This document shows, in pieces, positions 1,449 through 10,571 of a stretch of DNA of 14,015 bases. Under the pieces are notes generated by a model. It was not told the origin of the DNA. It saw only the letters and a program-made list of their open reading frames with translations, and made no database searches. Source of the DNA: Chloroflexota bacterium (lineage in GTDB: Bacteria; Chloroflexota; Anaerolineae; B4-G1; SLSP01). The position numbers and the translations under genes are program-made. The DNA is taken from the NCBI GenBank assembly GCA_022707665.1, contig JAKJAE010000034.1, forward strand, positions 1 through 14,015. Direction: 5' to 3'. Within the stretch, counting starts at the first letter, position 1, and every line of letters begins with the position of its first letter.

Positions 1449-2297
1449 ATGATGAAAATCGGAGCAGTCAGCCTCGGATGGAGCGGCACGAAACTGCCCC
1501 AGGTCTTTGACGAACTCGCCGCCATGGGCGGGACCGTCATCGAGATCAATGGAAACTCCCAGCGCCACCACGACATCGGTCTGGATGCCCGCACCATCCC
1601 CCAGATCCTGACCTGGGCCAAACACTCGGGCCTCACGATCGGAAGTCTGAGCGGGTACTGCGACTTCGCGCTGAGCACCGCAATGGACGCCGGAGCCGAA
1701 GCAGCCCTGGATGCGGAGATTGCGCGCCTGATGGCAACCTGTCGGGCCGCCTCCGAGATGCAGGTCCCCGTCGTGCGCACCTTTGTGGGCGATGTCAAGC
1801 CCGGTATCACATTCGCAGGCGCACGGCGCGGCATCGTCGCCGCACTGCGCAAGGCCAGCGCGCTGGCCAGCGTGCTGGGCGTGACGCTGGGTATCGAGAA
1901 TCACGGGCGACTGGTCAACGATGGCCCAACCCTGGTCGAGCTCGTGCGGGAGGTCGGTGCTCCTAACCTCGGATTCACGATCGACACCGGCAACTTCGCC
2001 TGGGCCGGACACGATGCAGCACAGGTGCGGGTCGATTTCGAGGCCACGGTGCCTTTGATCGTCAACGTCCACATCAAGGACGGCAAGTGGACTGACGACG
2101 GCTTTGAGTTTGTGCCCGCCGGGGAGGGCGAACTGCCGCTCGGGTGGTTACTGTCGAGCCTGAAGGCGCGGGGATATGAAGGCCCCATCTACAGTGAGTA
2201 CGAAGGTGGCGAGGCCTTCCGTGAGGGTACCCGTCGCAGCATCGCTTACCTTAGCCGCGCTATCGCGGAACTGGATTCGGCCCGCGCGGACGCTTGA
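1449..2297 (+). CDS. Sugar phosphate isomerase/epimerase, TIM-barrel
   Basis: This is a complete 282-residue protein of the xylose-isomerase-like TIM-barrel superfamily (AP endonuclease 2 fold). The four metal ligands expected for this fold are all visible: Glu150 in GIENHG, Asp179 in TIDTGNF, His208 in NVHIKDG and Glu250 in YSEYEGG. A divalent-metal sugar isomerase, epimerase or related lyase is therefore likely. The length is typical for the family. AAGGAGA at 1431-1437 precedes the ATG at 1449 by 11 bases; a second ATG follows at 1452 and either could be used. It is the second isomerase paralogue in this block and is diverged from the first, so the two probably act on different intermediates. 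Its TGA overlaps by one base the ATG of the oxidoreductase remnant, a classic translational-coupling arrangement. The substrate is unknown. Confidence 0.92.
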   Translation: MMKIGAVSLGWSGTKLPQVFDELAAMGGTVIEINGNSQRHHDIGLDARTIPQILTWAKHSGLTIGSLSGYCDFALSTAMDAGAEAALDAEIARLMATCRAASEMQVPVVRTFVGDVKPGITFAGARRGIVAALRKASALASVLGVTLGIENHGRLVNDGPTLVELVREVGAPNLGFTIDTGNFAWAGHDAAQVRVDFEATVPLIVNVHIKDGKWTDDGFEFVPAGEGELPLGWLLSSLKARGYEGPIYSEYEGGEAFREGTRRSIAYLSRAIAELDSARADA

Positions 2298-2711
2298 TGC
2301 TTACAACGAACAGGCCGATCAATCCGGCCTTCGTCGGAACCGGCAGTTGGGCCCGGAGCAAGCACTTCCCGGCCCTGGCCTATCTACTCACCCACCCCGA
2401 CGCGTTGCCCGGCGTCGAACTCAACCTCCAGGGCCTCTACAGCCTCGAGCAAGAGACCGCCCGAGCTGTCGCCGCCCAATACGGTTTTCGTCGCGTCTAT
2501 CAGAGCCTCGATGACCTGCTGTGCGACGATGGCCCCCGCGATCGATCCTGCAACACCGGAGATCGTACGTGTCGGCATCGTTGGCGAGTATGTCGAATTC
2601 CTCACCGCGGCCTGCGCGGGCAGACCTGTTCGCTCCACGTTCCAGAATGCCGTCAATAGCATGCGTGTGGCCGAAGCGATGCAAGAGGCAGGGAAACAGG
2701 TTGGAGCGTGA
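2297..2711 (+). pseudogene. Gfo/Idh/MocA-family oxidoreductase remnant with internal deletion and frame change
   Basis: From the ATG at 2297 one frame encodes an N-terminal Rossmann segment. The nucleotide-binding FVGTGSWARSKHFPAL is followed by a Y-G-F-x-x-V-Y-x-S-L-D-D-L-L stretch, the usual end of the second Rossmann unit of Gfo/Idh/MocA dehydrogenases. Homology stops near 2525. Another frame then encodes a typical C-terminal end: EYVEFLTAACAGRPVRST, then FQNAVNSMRVAEAMQEA, ending with TGA at 2709-2711. Family members have about 330-390 residues, whereas only some 130 residues' worth of DNA is left. Most of the catalytic domain is therefore missing and the two ends are out of frame. This is either a real deletion-inactivated gene or an assembly collapse. 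The intact enzyme would have oxidised a sugar or cyclitol with NAD(P), matching the adjacent isomerases. Confidence 0.85.
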
Positions 2712-2817
2712 TGGGATAGGAATGCCGCGAATCTGCCAGACGCGGCAGTCGGCCCCTGACCCGATTTGCGAATCGCCGGGTCACTCATCTTCTGCCGGGA
2801 ATCCATACCCTAACACT

Positions 2818-4197
2818 ATGCAATACTACACCCCTCCAGAACCAGACACGTTCGCCGGCGATGCAATGCCGTTCTACCACAATGGCACCTTCCACCTTTT
2901 CTACCTGCTCGACCACGGACACCACAGCAGCCTTGGGGGATTGGGCGGCCATCAGTGGGCGCACGCGACGACAACAGACCTGGTCCATTGGGAGCACCAT
3001 CCACTAGCGCTGGCGATCACCGAGCCGTGGGAGGGCTCGATCTGCACGGGCTCGGCGTTCTACCACGCCGGGACAACCTACGCCTTCTATGCAACACGCC
3101 GTCCCGACTGGACACAACACCTTGGCGTTGCCACAAGCTGCGACGGCATCACTTTCACGAAACGCCCACCCCTGGCATCGCCGGGGCCGCGCTTCTCGCC
3201 TGTTGACTATCGCGATCCCTTCGTCTTCCGTGACCCCGAGACGGGCACCTTTCACATGCTCGTCACATCGGCGCTTGCGAAGCCAGCCGTCGAGGGCTAT
3301 GGAGGCTGTCTTGCACATCTGACGTCGCGCGATCTGGAGCACTGGGAGGTGCAGGAGCCGTTCTACGAGTCCGGGTATGCCGGCCCTCCGGAATGTCCCG
3401 ACCTCTTTGCGTGGAACGGCTGGTGGTACCTCCTGTACAGCCACGGGCTCGTAACCCACTACCGGATGGCACGAGGGCCCCTGGGACCCTGGCAACGTCC
3501 TGTCGTGGACACGCTGGATGGAGCGATGGCAGCGGTGATCAAGACCGCACCGTTCGGCCCACAACGGCGGTTGGGCGTGGCCTGGGTAGGAACGCGCGAG
3601 GGCCATCTCGACCGCGGTGCCCGGCAATGGGGCGGCGCATTGGTTTTCCGGGAGCTCACCCAGCACTCAGATGGGACCCTCGGAACACGTTTCGTACCCG
3701 AAATGGTCCCATCGTCGGATGTGAAGCTTGAGCTGCCAATGCAACCCCTCACAGGCCATACAATCGTCGCAACCAGCAGCATCGCAATGACCGCGTCGAT
3801 GGGATTCGAGGTAGCTGCGTTTTCGGACGTACCTCGTGATGTCCACATCACCCTGCGGATCGAGCCCAACGGTGCCCACGCGTTTGGCCTGAGGCTCCGG
3901 GGAAGCGGCGCCTTCGCATCAGGCTATGACCTGCGCTTCGATCCCCACGAGGCGACCGTAAGCCTGGCGGACGTATCCCTGCCCCTCGTACGCGGCCTTG
4001 ACCATCCATTCCAGCTTGACCTCGTGATGATCGATGACCTCATCGATGTGTCCGTGAACACCGGTCATCCGGGGGGAGAACGGTGCCTGGCAAATCGTCT
4101 GCCCCAACTTGCCGGGGACCTGCTCTTCTTCTACGCTCAGGATGGCCCGGTCCGTTTCACCGATATTGCCGTTCGCAGAGCCAGTCGGGCTGGCTGA
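2818..4197 (+). CDS. GH32-like glycoside hydrolase (beta-fructosidase superfamily)
   Basis: This protein has 459 residues with a five-bladed beta-propeller followed by a C-terminal beta-sandwich-like region (about residues 310-459). The three acidic motifs of clan GH-J are visible in order: Asp15 in AGDAMPFY (nucleophile position, replacing the usual NDPNG context), Asp133 in YRDPFVF (transition-state stabiliser) and Glu192 in PECPDLF (acid/base). DLVHWEHHP and DLEHWEV are typical blade repeats. No signal peptide is seen, so it is probably cytoplasmic. The start at 2818 was chosen because family-like sequence begins immediately after it; no good Shine-Dalgarno precedes it. An in-frame ATG at 2722 is a weaker alternative that would add unrelated residues. 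It ends the sugar block, so it may release the sugar handled by the upstream enzymes. Fructoside specificity is uncertain because the first motif is divergent. Confidence 0.88.
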   Translation: MQYYTPPEPDTFAGDAMPFYHNGTFHLFYLLDHGHHSSLGGLGGHQWAHATTTDLVHWEHHPLALAITEPWEGSICTGSAFYHAGTTYAFYATRRPDWTQHLGVATSCDGITFTKRPPLASPGPRFSPVDYRDPFVFRDPETGTFHMLVTSALAKPAVEGYGGCLAHLTSRDLEHWEVQEPFYESGYAGPPECPDLFAWNGWWYLLYSHGLVTHYRMARGPLGPWQRPVVDTLDGAMAAVIKTAPFGPQRRLGVAWVGTREGHLDRGARQWGGALVFRELTQHSDGTLGTRFVPEMVPSSDVKLELPMQPLTGHTIVATSSIAMTASMGFEVAAFSDVPRDVHITLRIEPNGAHAFGLRLRGSGAFASGYDLRFDPHEATVSLADVSLPLVRGLDHPFQLDLVMIDDLIDVSVNTGHPGGERCLANRLPQLAGDLLFFYAQDGPVRFTDIAVRRASRAG

Positions 4198-4271: not shown

Positions 4272-4901
4272 TTGCTGCCCTGGCTCGGTGAGCAACTCAC
4301 ACAGTTTTGGGGGCCCTTTCGGCTGTTCAATTCCTACCTATTTCTGGCGAGCATTGGCGCCGCGATGGCGGCGCTCAGTACCTGGTTTGCGCTGCCGCGT
4401 CTATGGGACCGGCTTCCCCACGATCAAGGGCGTGTCTACGCGGTCGATGCAGAAAAGGCCAAGGGGAAGCCAGTTGGCGCGGGACTGATCTTTGTCTCGG
4501 TCTTTGCCATCGTCGCCCTGCTCGTCATGCCCTTTGACTGGCGCGTCGTCGGCGTCGTCGGCTGCATCGTGCTGTCCATGCTCGAGGGATACCTCGACGA
4601 CAGGAGCCACGGCTGGGGAGAGTACAGGCTGGGTGCGCTGGATCTCGGCGTCTCCCTCCTCGGCGCGGTGACACTGTGCCAGTTCCAGGACTACGTGATC
4701 TGGCTGCCCCTGTTCAAGACGCCCTTCACCATATCGCCCTGGCTCTTCATCCCCCTCGCCACAGCCGTGCTCTGGGTGATGATCAACGCGACCAACTGCA
4801 CCGATGGCGTCGATGGACTGTCGGCCAGTCTGTCAATCCTGGCCTTCATCTACCTCGGGGGCATACTCTACGGCGTGGCCACACTACGCAGATGGCGCTA
4901 A
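4272..4901 (+). CDS. mraY: MraY-like phospho-N-acetylmuramoyl-pentapeptide transferase, N-terminal part (gene broken by frameshift)
   Basis: The 209-residue frame starts with TTG and holds several hydrophobic membrane helices. It carries the first landmarks of the MraY/WecA polyprenyl-phosphate phosphoglycosyltransferase family: VDAEKAKGKPVGAGLIF (early loop), the Asp pair Asp109-Asp110 in GYLDDRS, and NATNCTDGVDG near residue 175. Homology continues to about GGILYGVA at 4880, after which the frame reads a short nonsense tail to TAA at 4899-4901. The rest of the enzyme is in another frame directly downstream. MraY moves phospho-MurNAc-pentapeptide onto undecaprenyl phosphate to make lipid I at the inner membrane. 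The sequence around the substrate loop differs from E. coli MraY, so a paralogue using another sugar is possible. As written, neither half could work alone. Confidence 0.82.
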   Translation: MLPWLGEQLTQFWGPFRLFNSYLFLASIGAAMAALSTWFALPRLWDRLPHDQGRVYAVDAEKAKGKPVGAGLIFVSVFAIVALLVMPFDWRVVGVVGCIVLSMLEGYLDDRSHGWGEYRLGALDLGVSLLGAVTLCQFQDYVIWLPLFKTPFTISPWLFIPLATAVLWVMINATNCTDGVDGLSASLSILAFIYLGGILYGVATLRRWR

Positions 4902-5283
4902 CTGGGCGCTGATGGCCTTCATCATGGTGGGCTGTCTCGCCGGCTACCTGTGGCACAACAGCCTGCCCAGCGCCGTCTTGATGGGGGATGCCGGCTCCCG
5001 ACCGATGGGGCTTCTACTGGGCTTGCTTGTGATGGCTTCGGGCAATCCCTTCCTGATCTTTGTCGTCACCGGCGTCGTGTTGGTCAACGGCGCAACAGGC
5101 CTCCTCAAGGTGGCTCTGTTGCGCTTCTTCAGAATCAGCATCTTCAAAGGCATTCGCTACCCGTTGCATGACCATGTGCGCCACACGCTTGGCTGGTCCG
5201 ACACCCAGGTTCTGGTACGCTTTGTGCTCCTGCAGGCGATTGGCACACCCATCTTGCTCGTACTCCTGTTTAAGGTGCGTTAG
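4879..5283 (+). CDS. mraY: MraY-like transferase, C-terminal part (frameshifted continuation)
   Basis: In the +1 frame relative to the upstream part, the family sequence resumes at PHYADGANWALMAF from 4879. It then carries VLMGDAGSRPMG, whose MGD Asp is a conserved MraY/WecA active-site residue. Further hydrophobic helices follow, then PLHDHVRHTLGWSDTQ, which corresponds to the histidine loop (HHHFE in E. coli MraY) before the last helix. It ends with TAG at 5281-5283. An in-frame ATG at 4912 or one upstream at 4804 might be called by gene finders, but no Shine-Dalgarno supports independent translation. The stretch joining the halves looks roughly ten residues shorter than in E. coli MraY, as I recall it. 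The lesion may therefore be a small deletion that is not a multiple of three, and not a single-base change. Confidence 0.8.
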   Translation, partial: PHYADGANWALMAFIMVGCLAGYLWHNSLPSAVLMGDAGSRPMGLLLGLLVMASGNPFLIFVVTGVVLVNGATGLLKVALLRFFRISIFKGIRYPLHDHVRHTLGWSDTQVLVRFVLLQAIGTPILLVLLFKVR

Positions 5284-9314: not shown

Positions 9315-10571
9315 ATGTCGGGCATAGCAAGCCACACACCGCTAGCAGCTTCCGTCAATCGCATCACCCTCGTCGATCTTCCCTCGGTGAAGGTCGACGA
9401 GGGTGTTCTCGGTGAGCAAGCATACCATCTCGTATCCGTCCCGGCTCTGATCCGGTACGCTCGAAAACAAGCCGAGGCTCTGAAGCTGCCAACGGCGCTC
9501 CGAGAAGCAGACCCTCAGATGCCCGAGGTGCGTCAGAGCCTGCCCCTATGGGTCGACGCTTCCCTCAACAGCGCCGACCCTGCAGCCCGCCACGCTGCCG
9601 AGTCCATTGCCAGACGACTCGGCCGCAACCTCGGATATCTGCTTGCAGTACTGCACCGCGGCGATGAGGTCAACCGAGCCGCACGCGCGGACTGGACGGC
9701 ACAGGAGTGGTCACGGTGGGCCAGCGTGCGCCATGTCTGGCTCGGTGGGGGTGTGGTTGCCGGCACCCTGGGACGGCAACTCGTGACCCACGCACAATCC
9801 GTGTTAGCCGAAGCTGGATGTAGTGCTTTGCAGATCGAACGCACACCCTATCCTGGCCACATCGCCACGCTCGGAGCAGCTCGGTGCTTGCCCGCAGCGC
9901 ACACCTCGACAGGACAAAGACACGCCCTGGTCCTGGATCTGGGCCAAACGTCGATCAAGAGATCGGTCGTGACCTTTCAAGAGCGAACGATTACCCACGT
10001 TGCCGTCCTGGCCCCTCACCCCGTGCCGTGGCGATGGCAGAACAGCCCCAGTGCAGGGCAGAACATCGCCGGACGGGCAGTGTTGGATCTCGTCACCGAG
10101 GCTCTGGGCACGAGCATGGAGGAGGCAGCCAGTCGGGGATGGCACGTCGATCGCCAGGTAGCCATGAGCATCGCAGCATACGTCGAGGGTACACGGCTAA
10201 TGGGCAATGGCATCTACGCACGGATGAGTATGCTCGCCGATGACGTGCCGCAACTGATCGCCGAGCACGTCGCAGCAACCTATGGCTGGCACCCGGAGCT
10301 GACCCTCATTCACGACGGCACGGCTGCTGCAGCAACGCACGCTGGCGAGGCTGGTCACACGCCGTGCGCTGTCGAGGCGACACCCGCCGTTGTATCAACA
10401 CCCACCCTCGAATCCACGGCCGCCGTTGAAGCGACAGAATCCGTTGCCATCGTCCTGGGGACCGCGCTTGGCATTGGATTTCCCGCCGCCAGCGACCTGG
10501 AGCTAACTGCTCTCTCGCCAGATCTCATCATCGAGACTATAGCCAAGCCCGAAGCCATAGGGCCACGCTAA
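9315..10571 (+). CDS. Actin/ROK-like sugar kinase-fold protein with permuted motif order
   Basis: This 418-residue protein shows the ATPase motifs of the ROK/actin fold in an unusual order. An adenosine-type motif VWLGGGVVAG (Gly144-Gly146) with a following LGAAR (187-190) comes first; in ordinary ROK kinases these lie near the C-terminus. Phosphate 1 follows as LVLDLGQTSIKRS (Asp208, Lys215), then IHDGTAAAA (Asp334, the position of the ROK catalytic Asp), and phosphate 2 as VLGTALGIGFP (Gly382-Thr383). The CxCGxxGCxE zinc motif of many ROK proteins is absent. A Pro/Ala/Thr/Val/Glu-rich insert (about 352-376, with VEAT twice) precedes phosphate 2, and only about 36 residues follow it. An ATP-binding sugar kinase or a regulator is likely; the substrate is unknown. 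I recall similar uncharacterised proteins in other bacteria, so this may be a conserved permuted family. It follows the nitroreductase by 23 bases. Confidence 0.7.
   Translation: MSGIASHTPLAASVNRITLVDLPSVKVDEGVLGEQAYHLVSVPALIRYARKQAEALKLPTALREADPQMPEVRQSLPLWVDASLNSADPAARHAAESIARRLGRNLGYLLAVLHRGDEVNRAARADWTAQEWSRWASVRHVWLGGGVVAGTLGRQLVTHAQSVLAEAGCSALQIERTPYPGHIATLGAARCLPAAHTSTGQRHALVLDLGQTSIKRSVVTFQERTITHVAVLAPHPVPWRWQNSPSAGQNIAGRAVLDLVTEALGTSMEEAASRGWHVDRQVAMSIAAYVEGTRLMGNGIYARMSMLADDVPQLIAEHVAATYGWHPELTLIHDGTAAAATHAGEAGHTPCAVEATPAVVSTPTLESTAAVEATESVAIVLGTALGIGFPAASDLELTALSPDLIIETIAKPEAIGPR

Follow-up and report, generated by a model that had tools for sequence, protein, structure and literature searches.

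A conserved family of probable circularly permuted ROK-like proteins in the ASKHA superfamily

Within a 14,015-nucleotide stretch of a Chloroflexota bacterium genome (hereafter the window), one gene encodes a protein whose chain is almost certainly circularly permuted relative to the ROK proteins. Motif order, family conservation, predicted fold and lobe-by-lobe homology agree on this reading, which a preliminary description had put forward as a true permutation of an actin-fold ATPase. Judging from sequence comparison and structural modelling together, the protein is very probably ROK-like and permuted, with a functional ATP site.

ASKHA proteins, which include sugar kinases, Hsp70, actin, FtsA and MreB, have two lobes that move to close a cleft, and the ROK family among them comprises glucokinases, ManNAc/GlcNAc kinases, fructokinases and the Mlc/NagC/XylR regulators. 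We know of no natural circular permutation among ASKHA proteins, and searches of PMC literature turned up no account of a permuted ROK or ASKHA kinase; outside their reach lie most subscription papers and all bioRxiv preprints.

The gene, its motif order and its family

An ATG opens a 418-codon frame at window positions 9315-10571 (+ strand), 23 bp after the end of a nitroreductase gene, itself preceded by a gene for a prolyl-type tRNA synthetase, and 9 bp upstream of a large sensor-kinase frame. A Pfam scan of the protein returned no family at E up to 1, an NCBIfam scan gave a sole match of 15.8 bits against a cut-off of 650, and a sequence search of the PDB with the family profile gave no match (best E 0.75, a dynein light chain). 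No extra domain, DNA-binding domains included, was found by Pfam scan in the window protein or in the 31 family members scanned. The source genome, a fragmented draft of 513 contigs that is 73% complete, also has four ordinary ROK matches above the Pfam cut-off, one of which spans the whole model. The features of the gene, all on the + strand, are as follows.

9315..10571, +, whole gene, for a 418-aa protein read as a circularly permuted ROK-like ASKHA protein from the ORF, the family and the AlphaFold2 model
9315..9425, +, residues 1-37, N-terminal family-specific segment (SxNR..DLP), with S13 in 246/259 and N15 in 249/259
9426..9896, +, residues 38-194, domain II helices together with two of its core strands, corresponding to the ROK C-terminal part (profile 184-314)
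9666..9719, +, residues 118-135, insertion without a counterpart in the ROK profile; N120, R121, R124, D/E126, W127, W132 and W135 nearly invariant
9744..9752, +, residues 144-146, GGG adenosine motif, with G145 and G146 in 259/259
9870..9884, +, residues 186-190, LGAAR, counterpart of the GAA that ends ROK proteins; G187 in 259/259
9897..9935, +, residues 195-207, short linker and beginning of strand b1, where the former C- and N-termini are connected
9909..10349, +, residues 199-345, domain I (b1-b3, a1, b4, a2, b5, a3), equivalent to the ROK N-terminal half
9936..9959, +, residues 208-215, phosphate 1 motif DLGQTSIK, from profile alignment and conservation
10311..10331, +, residues 333-339, HDGTAAA with D334, at the position of the ROK catalytic Asp (NDxN); putative role
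10362..10436, +, residues 350-374, loosely predicted insertion, missing from most of 30 aligned relatives
10440..10538, +, residues 376-408, domain II strands b1', b2' and b3' with phosphate 2, from model, profile and conservation

In ROK proteins the motifs run phosphate 1, Asp, phosphate 2, adenosine and GAA, an order that this family does not have. In the window protein, GGG and LGAAR precede phosphate 1 (D208-x-G-x-T-x-x-K215), D334 and phosphate 2 (G382-T-A-L-G-I-G388), as the preliminary description had read them, with positions right within a residue or two. Its remark that almost nothing follows phosphate 2 was nearly right: 30 residues follow G388, among them a modelled strand at 399-408.

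Three protein-collection searches at E up to 1e-3, with about 8000 candidates scored in each, returned at least 225, at least 238 and at least 425 proteins, and the best 120 of each were taken. The resulting family set comprises 259 best-scoring, length-filtered proteins (P0001-P0259), the window's own included, and the conservation counts describe these proteins rather than every remote relative. Homologues were examined for their order, as the preliminary description had proposed: a pattern search located the full set of four motifs, rotated, in 151/259 and found no different order in any of the 259; in the remaining 108, one or two motifs were missed by the narrow patterns (the adenosine motif alone in 104). 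By alignment column, G145, G146, G187, D208, G210, H333, D334, G382 and G388 are identical in 259/259, which rules out a chance pattern, K215 is found in 258/259 and position 383 is T or S in 259/259. Among the family proteins listed, every name shown was "hypothetical protein" and none carried a precomputed Pfam domain.

DNA-level relatives were found on 29 contigs of species genomes, 22 of which have Chloroflexota-type titles; the other seven belong to Halanaerobacter, two Halanaerobium and MAGs titled Clostridiales, Lachnospiraceae, Spirochaete and Proteobacteria. The last title is probably wrong, because the family protein on that contig equals one in G128, which belongs to the window's phylum, in both score and length (loci L028 and L068). 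Occurrence is patchy across genome groups: 7/400 genomes of the window's phylum (the matches in G258 and G325 being partial or split), 2/38 in the order around Halanaerobium kushneri, 3/299 in the family of the Lachnospiraceae MAG and 2/196 in the order of the Clostridiales MAG, each count taking in the genome that prompted it. Intact copies are present in the isolate genomes of Halanaerobacter jeridensis and Halanaerobium kushneri. The copy of Halanaerobium saccharolyticum is interrupted (L023, 7947-8717 and 8743-9060, +), and the gene may therefore be dispensable in this species. A search of viral contigs gave 31 pattern matches and no relative of the family.

In G325, the halves of the family protein lie in two overlapping frames (L070, 1483-2034 and 1998-2627, -), which part where the old termini meet. 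A GTG just before phosphate 1 is a possible start for the C-half frame, which would then resemble the N-terminus of ordinary ROK proteins; a natural split gene is no more likely here than a frameshift.

Gene neighbours were compared by single-linkage clustering of the frames of the window and 32 loci (33 sets), with names outside the window read by eye. Surroundings were listed for 30 of the 33 sets (L010, L067 and L069 were left out, though family frames are present there), and six further stretches were added, with the gene in four (L134 being the same place as L029) and not in L135 or L136. No widely conserved neighbour emerged among the 33 sets and the further stretches. The largest shared groups, sensor-kinase/response-regulator genes (9/33 sets) and ABC-type ATPases (7/33), are broad families at varied distances from the gene. 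A moeA-like gene lies 13-17 bp downstream of the family gene in three loci (L024, L025, L034), DNA-ligase-like and prolyl-tRNA synthetase neighbours occur in three sets each (the latter in the window, L006 and L009), and aldehyde ferredoxin oxidoreductase-like genes (L007, L011, L026) and creatininase-like genes (L011, L012, L026) in three loci each. Because several of these loci are closely related, we draw no pathway from them; a link of the moeA-like and aldehyde ferredoxin oxidoreductase-like neighbours to molybdenum or tungsten cofactor enzymes is possible but weak. In two genomes of the Lachnospiraceae set (L131, 1234-1899, and L132, 6633-7238), the family gene is convergent to a gene that by eye resembles dipicolinate synthase subunit B.

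Elsewhere in the window, overlapping frames at 4272-4901 and 4804-5283 (+) hold the first and second parts of one PF00953 domain (glycosyl transferase family 4), and a 398-aa frame at the related locus L006 clusters with the first piece; the window copy looks frameshifted, through sequencing error or decay. By eye, 2294-2659 (+) reads as only the first part of a Gfo/Idh-type oxidoreductase, cut short, and a glycosidase-like frame (2521-4197) comes directly after it.

Profile tests and predicted fold

The permutation was tested with a ROK profile of 51 proteins drawn from the window's class (loci found by genome search gave 31 of them, and 20 more were added) and family profiles of 156 sequences for the tandem test and 259 proteins for the half-against-half test. 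The native family profile scored 44.4 (hhalign) over 128 columns against a single ROK profile; with ROK-ROK joined head to tail as the target, the score was 87.1 over 268 columns (E 2.2e-10), the alignment running from ROK 184-319 straight into ROK 1-146 at only about 20% identity. When the profile was rotated in 15-residue steps, the single-ROK score rose from 44.4 to a peak of about 72 at a cut of 190-196 in P0073 numbering (approximately residues 192-203 of the window protein) and then fell. An earlier hhalign run with a shallower ROK profile had given no score gain (37.4 native over 126 columns, 37.5 rotated over 298 columns), the gain appearing with the deeper profiles. The family's distant branch alone (77 sequences) went from 33.3 to 54.0 with tandem ROK.

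Controls stayed far below these values. Forty column-shuffled ROK tandems gave a mean of 16.0 (sd 3.0, maximum 23.2) and a reversed ROK tandem gave 17.9, and for normal-order families the tandem target added at most 1.7 (single/tandem: ROK against Glk 76.2/76.0, Glk against ROK 81.2/82.9, BadF against ROK 37.0/37.0). Profiling the halves separately, a check that the preliminary description had proposed, gave 40.9 for the family N-half against the ROK C-half and 46.2 for the family C-half against the ROK N-half, compared with 15.1 for N against N and 14.9 for C against C, so that both lobes are homologous to ROK lobes in swapped positions.

An AlphaFold2 model of the window protein (120 sequences) reached a mean pLDDT of 92.4 and a pTM of 0.90, the poorly modelled regions being both ends and the insertion at about 345-375. 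It comprises helices from 42 to 136, a strand at 140-144, a helix at 151-166, a strand at 173-176 and a helix at 183-190, followed by strands at 201-209, 213-222 and 225-236, a helix at 253-273, a strand at 278-286 and helices to 323; domain I, complete with five strands, closes with a strand at 328-333 and a helix at 334-341, and the chain ends with strands at 376-381, 385-388 and 399-408. On the ASKHA plan, the model reads as a1'-b4'-a2'-b5'-a3' of domain II, the whole of domain I, and then b1'-b2'-b3' of domain II. The first 200 residues, which had been taken for the C-terminal lobe of an actin-like ATPase, are thus predicted to hold two domain II core strands and the last 45 the other three; in the model the chain ends fall, as had been supposed, between phosphate 2 and the adenosine motif.

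The other model, made for a Lachnospiraceae member with about 25% identity (90 sequences; pLDDT 95.4, pTM 0.91), has its main elements in the same order, with two short extra N-terminal strands (9-11 and 17-19) and a chain that ends after b2'. With VIA-align, the N-part of the window model fell on the C-part of 3r8e and its C-part on the N-part of ROK entries such as 2yhw, and the C-part of the Lachnospiraceae model aligned with the N-part of ROK entries. Foldseek, which like VIA-align keeps chain order, put a tandem hexokinase at the top, followed by Hsp70 chains, all at low TM-scores. Two ribonuclease H-like domains around an ATP cleft, the ASKHA arrangement, are predicted by the AlphaFold2 models and the VIA-align results alike.

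ROK 147-183, with ExGH and CxCGxxGC, falls outside the tandem alignment, and the family's C-terminal tail and N-terminal segment stand in its place. Residues 1-37, conserved at S13, N15, R/K16 and LP (22-23), would thus occupy the position of the ROK ExGH/zinc loop. The insertion at 118-135 sits between helix a1' and strand b4'.

Proposed function and competing readings

In the mechanism we propose, the old termini would have been joined, LGAAR to strand b1, and the new termini would open in domain II, in the region of the ROK ExGH/zinc loop. The short join of the old ends suggests, as a likely origin, a tandem duplication after which both ends were lost. ATP would lie in the cleft, held by D208/K215 of phosphate 1, G382-T383 of phosphate 2 and G145-G146 of the adenosine motif. 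The Asp that follows strand b5 is the catalytic base of ROK and hexokinase enzymes; D334 would likewise activate the hydroxyl of a small molecule, as in a kinase. Because the family retains the residues of the ATP site and its Asp is invariant (HDGTAAA for NDxNAAA), we favour an ATP-dependent phosphotransferase, and kinase activity is predicted with moderate confidence.

The usual ROK hexose ligands are the Asn of NDxN and the Glu and His of ExGH. The family-specific invariants H333, Y289 and Y301, with S13/N15 of the relocated N-terminus and perhaps also the R124-W127-W132-W135 insertion, may replace them. Since the hexose ligands are missing and family invariants may stand in, the substrate is probably not a free hexose, and the protein would probably be an ATP-dependent kinase of some other small molecule with a hydroxyl group, its pocket differing from that of hexose kinases. 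As no widely conserved gene neighbour was found, we can only infer this function.

The main rival accepts the permuted fold and sees in it an ATPase-driven switch, sensor or regulator, no kinase, as with the Mlc-like ROK regulators, Hsp70 and PilM/FtsA elsewhere in the ASKHA superfamily. Loss of the hexose-binding motifs (ExGH anywhere in 8/259, the zinc motif in 0/259) and the want of a widely recurring neighbour suit such a role, and the three near-invariant Trp of the insertion could form a protein-binding surface. However, the Asp after b5 is present in 259/259, in a motif that aligns with NDxN, and the window protein and the 31 scanned members have no DNA-binding or other extra domain; we regard a regulator as possible, if somewhat doubtful. 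A permuted ASKHA kinase might also derive from outside ROK, as the identity of only about 20% and the Lys at +7 of phosphate 1, which recalls actin and hexokinase rather than ROK, would allow. Against the same family profile, though, ROK scores 83.9 in tandem, BadF/BadG (19 sequences) 33.3 and Glk (9 sequences) 25.9, and even with only 9 or 19 sequences ROK profiles score 63-76; on this comparison, with BadF/BadG and Glk for the non-ROK ASKHA families, a source outside ROK is unlikely.

The permutation itself could be denied in two ways. The chain might have a normal actin-like order with a reduced first domain, its motifs seeming shifted as the two domains resemble each other. Against this, unswapped halves score at the level of the shuffled controls (15.1 and 14.9 against 16) while swapped halves reach 40.9 and 46.2, and in both models the N-half has two domain II core strands and the C-terminus supplies more; on these comparisons with ROK such an order is very improbable. 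A frameshift, assembly artefact or local fusion of two ROK fragments might be suspected in a fragmented draft where other window genes look broken, yet same-order relatives lie on many contigs, the intact Halanaerobacter jeridensis and Halanaerobium kushneri copies included, and its chance is negligible. Local fusion, named in the preliminary description as a case against its reading, is ruled out by these relatives.

The permuted ROK-like reading can be extended further, to a first natural permutation of an ASKHA kinase, spread across phyla, whose relocated ends replace the hexose loop and form a new substrate pocket in an undescribed small-molecule kinase; the chances of this full account are about even. 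A rotated chain kept over several phyla would in itself mean that fold and ATP site are independent of where the chain starts, and the family would be a natural test of folding-order and hinge ideas. The rotation would explain why ordinary domain libraries miss the family, which would add to the probable kinases a set of genes from anaerobes and from some gut bacteria.

Relation to ROK and other kinase families

We place the family in the ASKHA superfamily as a permuted sister of ROK rather than as a ROK member, because its lobes are homologous to those of ROK but the order, Pfam model, signature, ExGH and zinc motif fail. Common to ROK (PF00480) and the family are both lobes, by profile, the phosphate 1, phosphate 2, adenosine and GAA motifs, and the Asp after strand b5. 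Unlike ROK, the family has a rotated order with new termini in domain II, HDG in place of NDxN, and an N-terminal segment and Trp-rich insertion of its own. The PF00480 model matched 1/31 family members scanned (E 0.00044) and not the window protein, and the PROSITE ROK signature PS01125 was found in 0/259 family proteins versus 38/51 ROK proteins of the window's class. ExGH occurs at any position in 8/259 versus 44/51, and CxCGxxGC in 0/259 versus 33/51, so the zinc motif is not universal in ROK either.

The BadF/BadG/BcrA/BcrD family (PF01869) shares the ASKHA fold, and its weak tandem match (about 33.3-34.6) crosses the junction too, but its order is normal and its similarity far weaker than that of ROK. 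Bacterial Glk (PF02685), an ASKHA sugar kinase itself near ROK (76.2), differs in its normal order and insignificant profile match (24.0 single, 25.9-26.4 tandem). Eukaryotic hexokinases are likewise ASKHA sugar kinases of normal order; human hexokinase I/II, with two tandem copies, aligns with the model over both copies at an overall rmsd of 31-36 A. Outside this superfamily, ADP-dependent glucokinase and 2-keto-3-deoxygluconokinase have a ribokinase-like fold. PMC2213659 describes a segment swap between these two enzymes, which resembles our case as a non-sequential relation between two kinases and differs from it in being a local segment swap instead of an ASKHA rotation.
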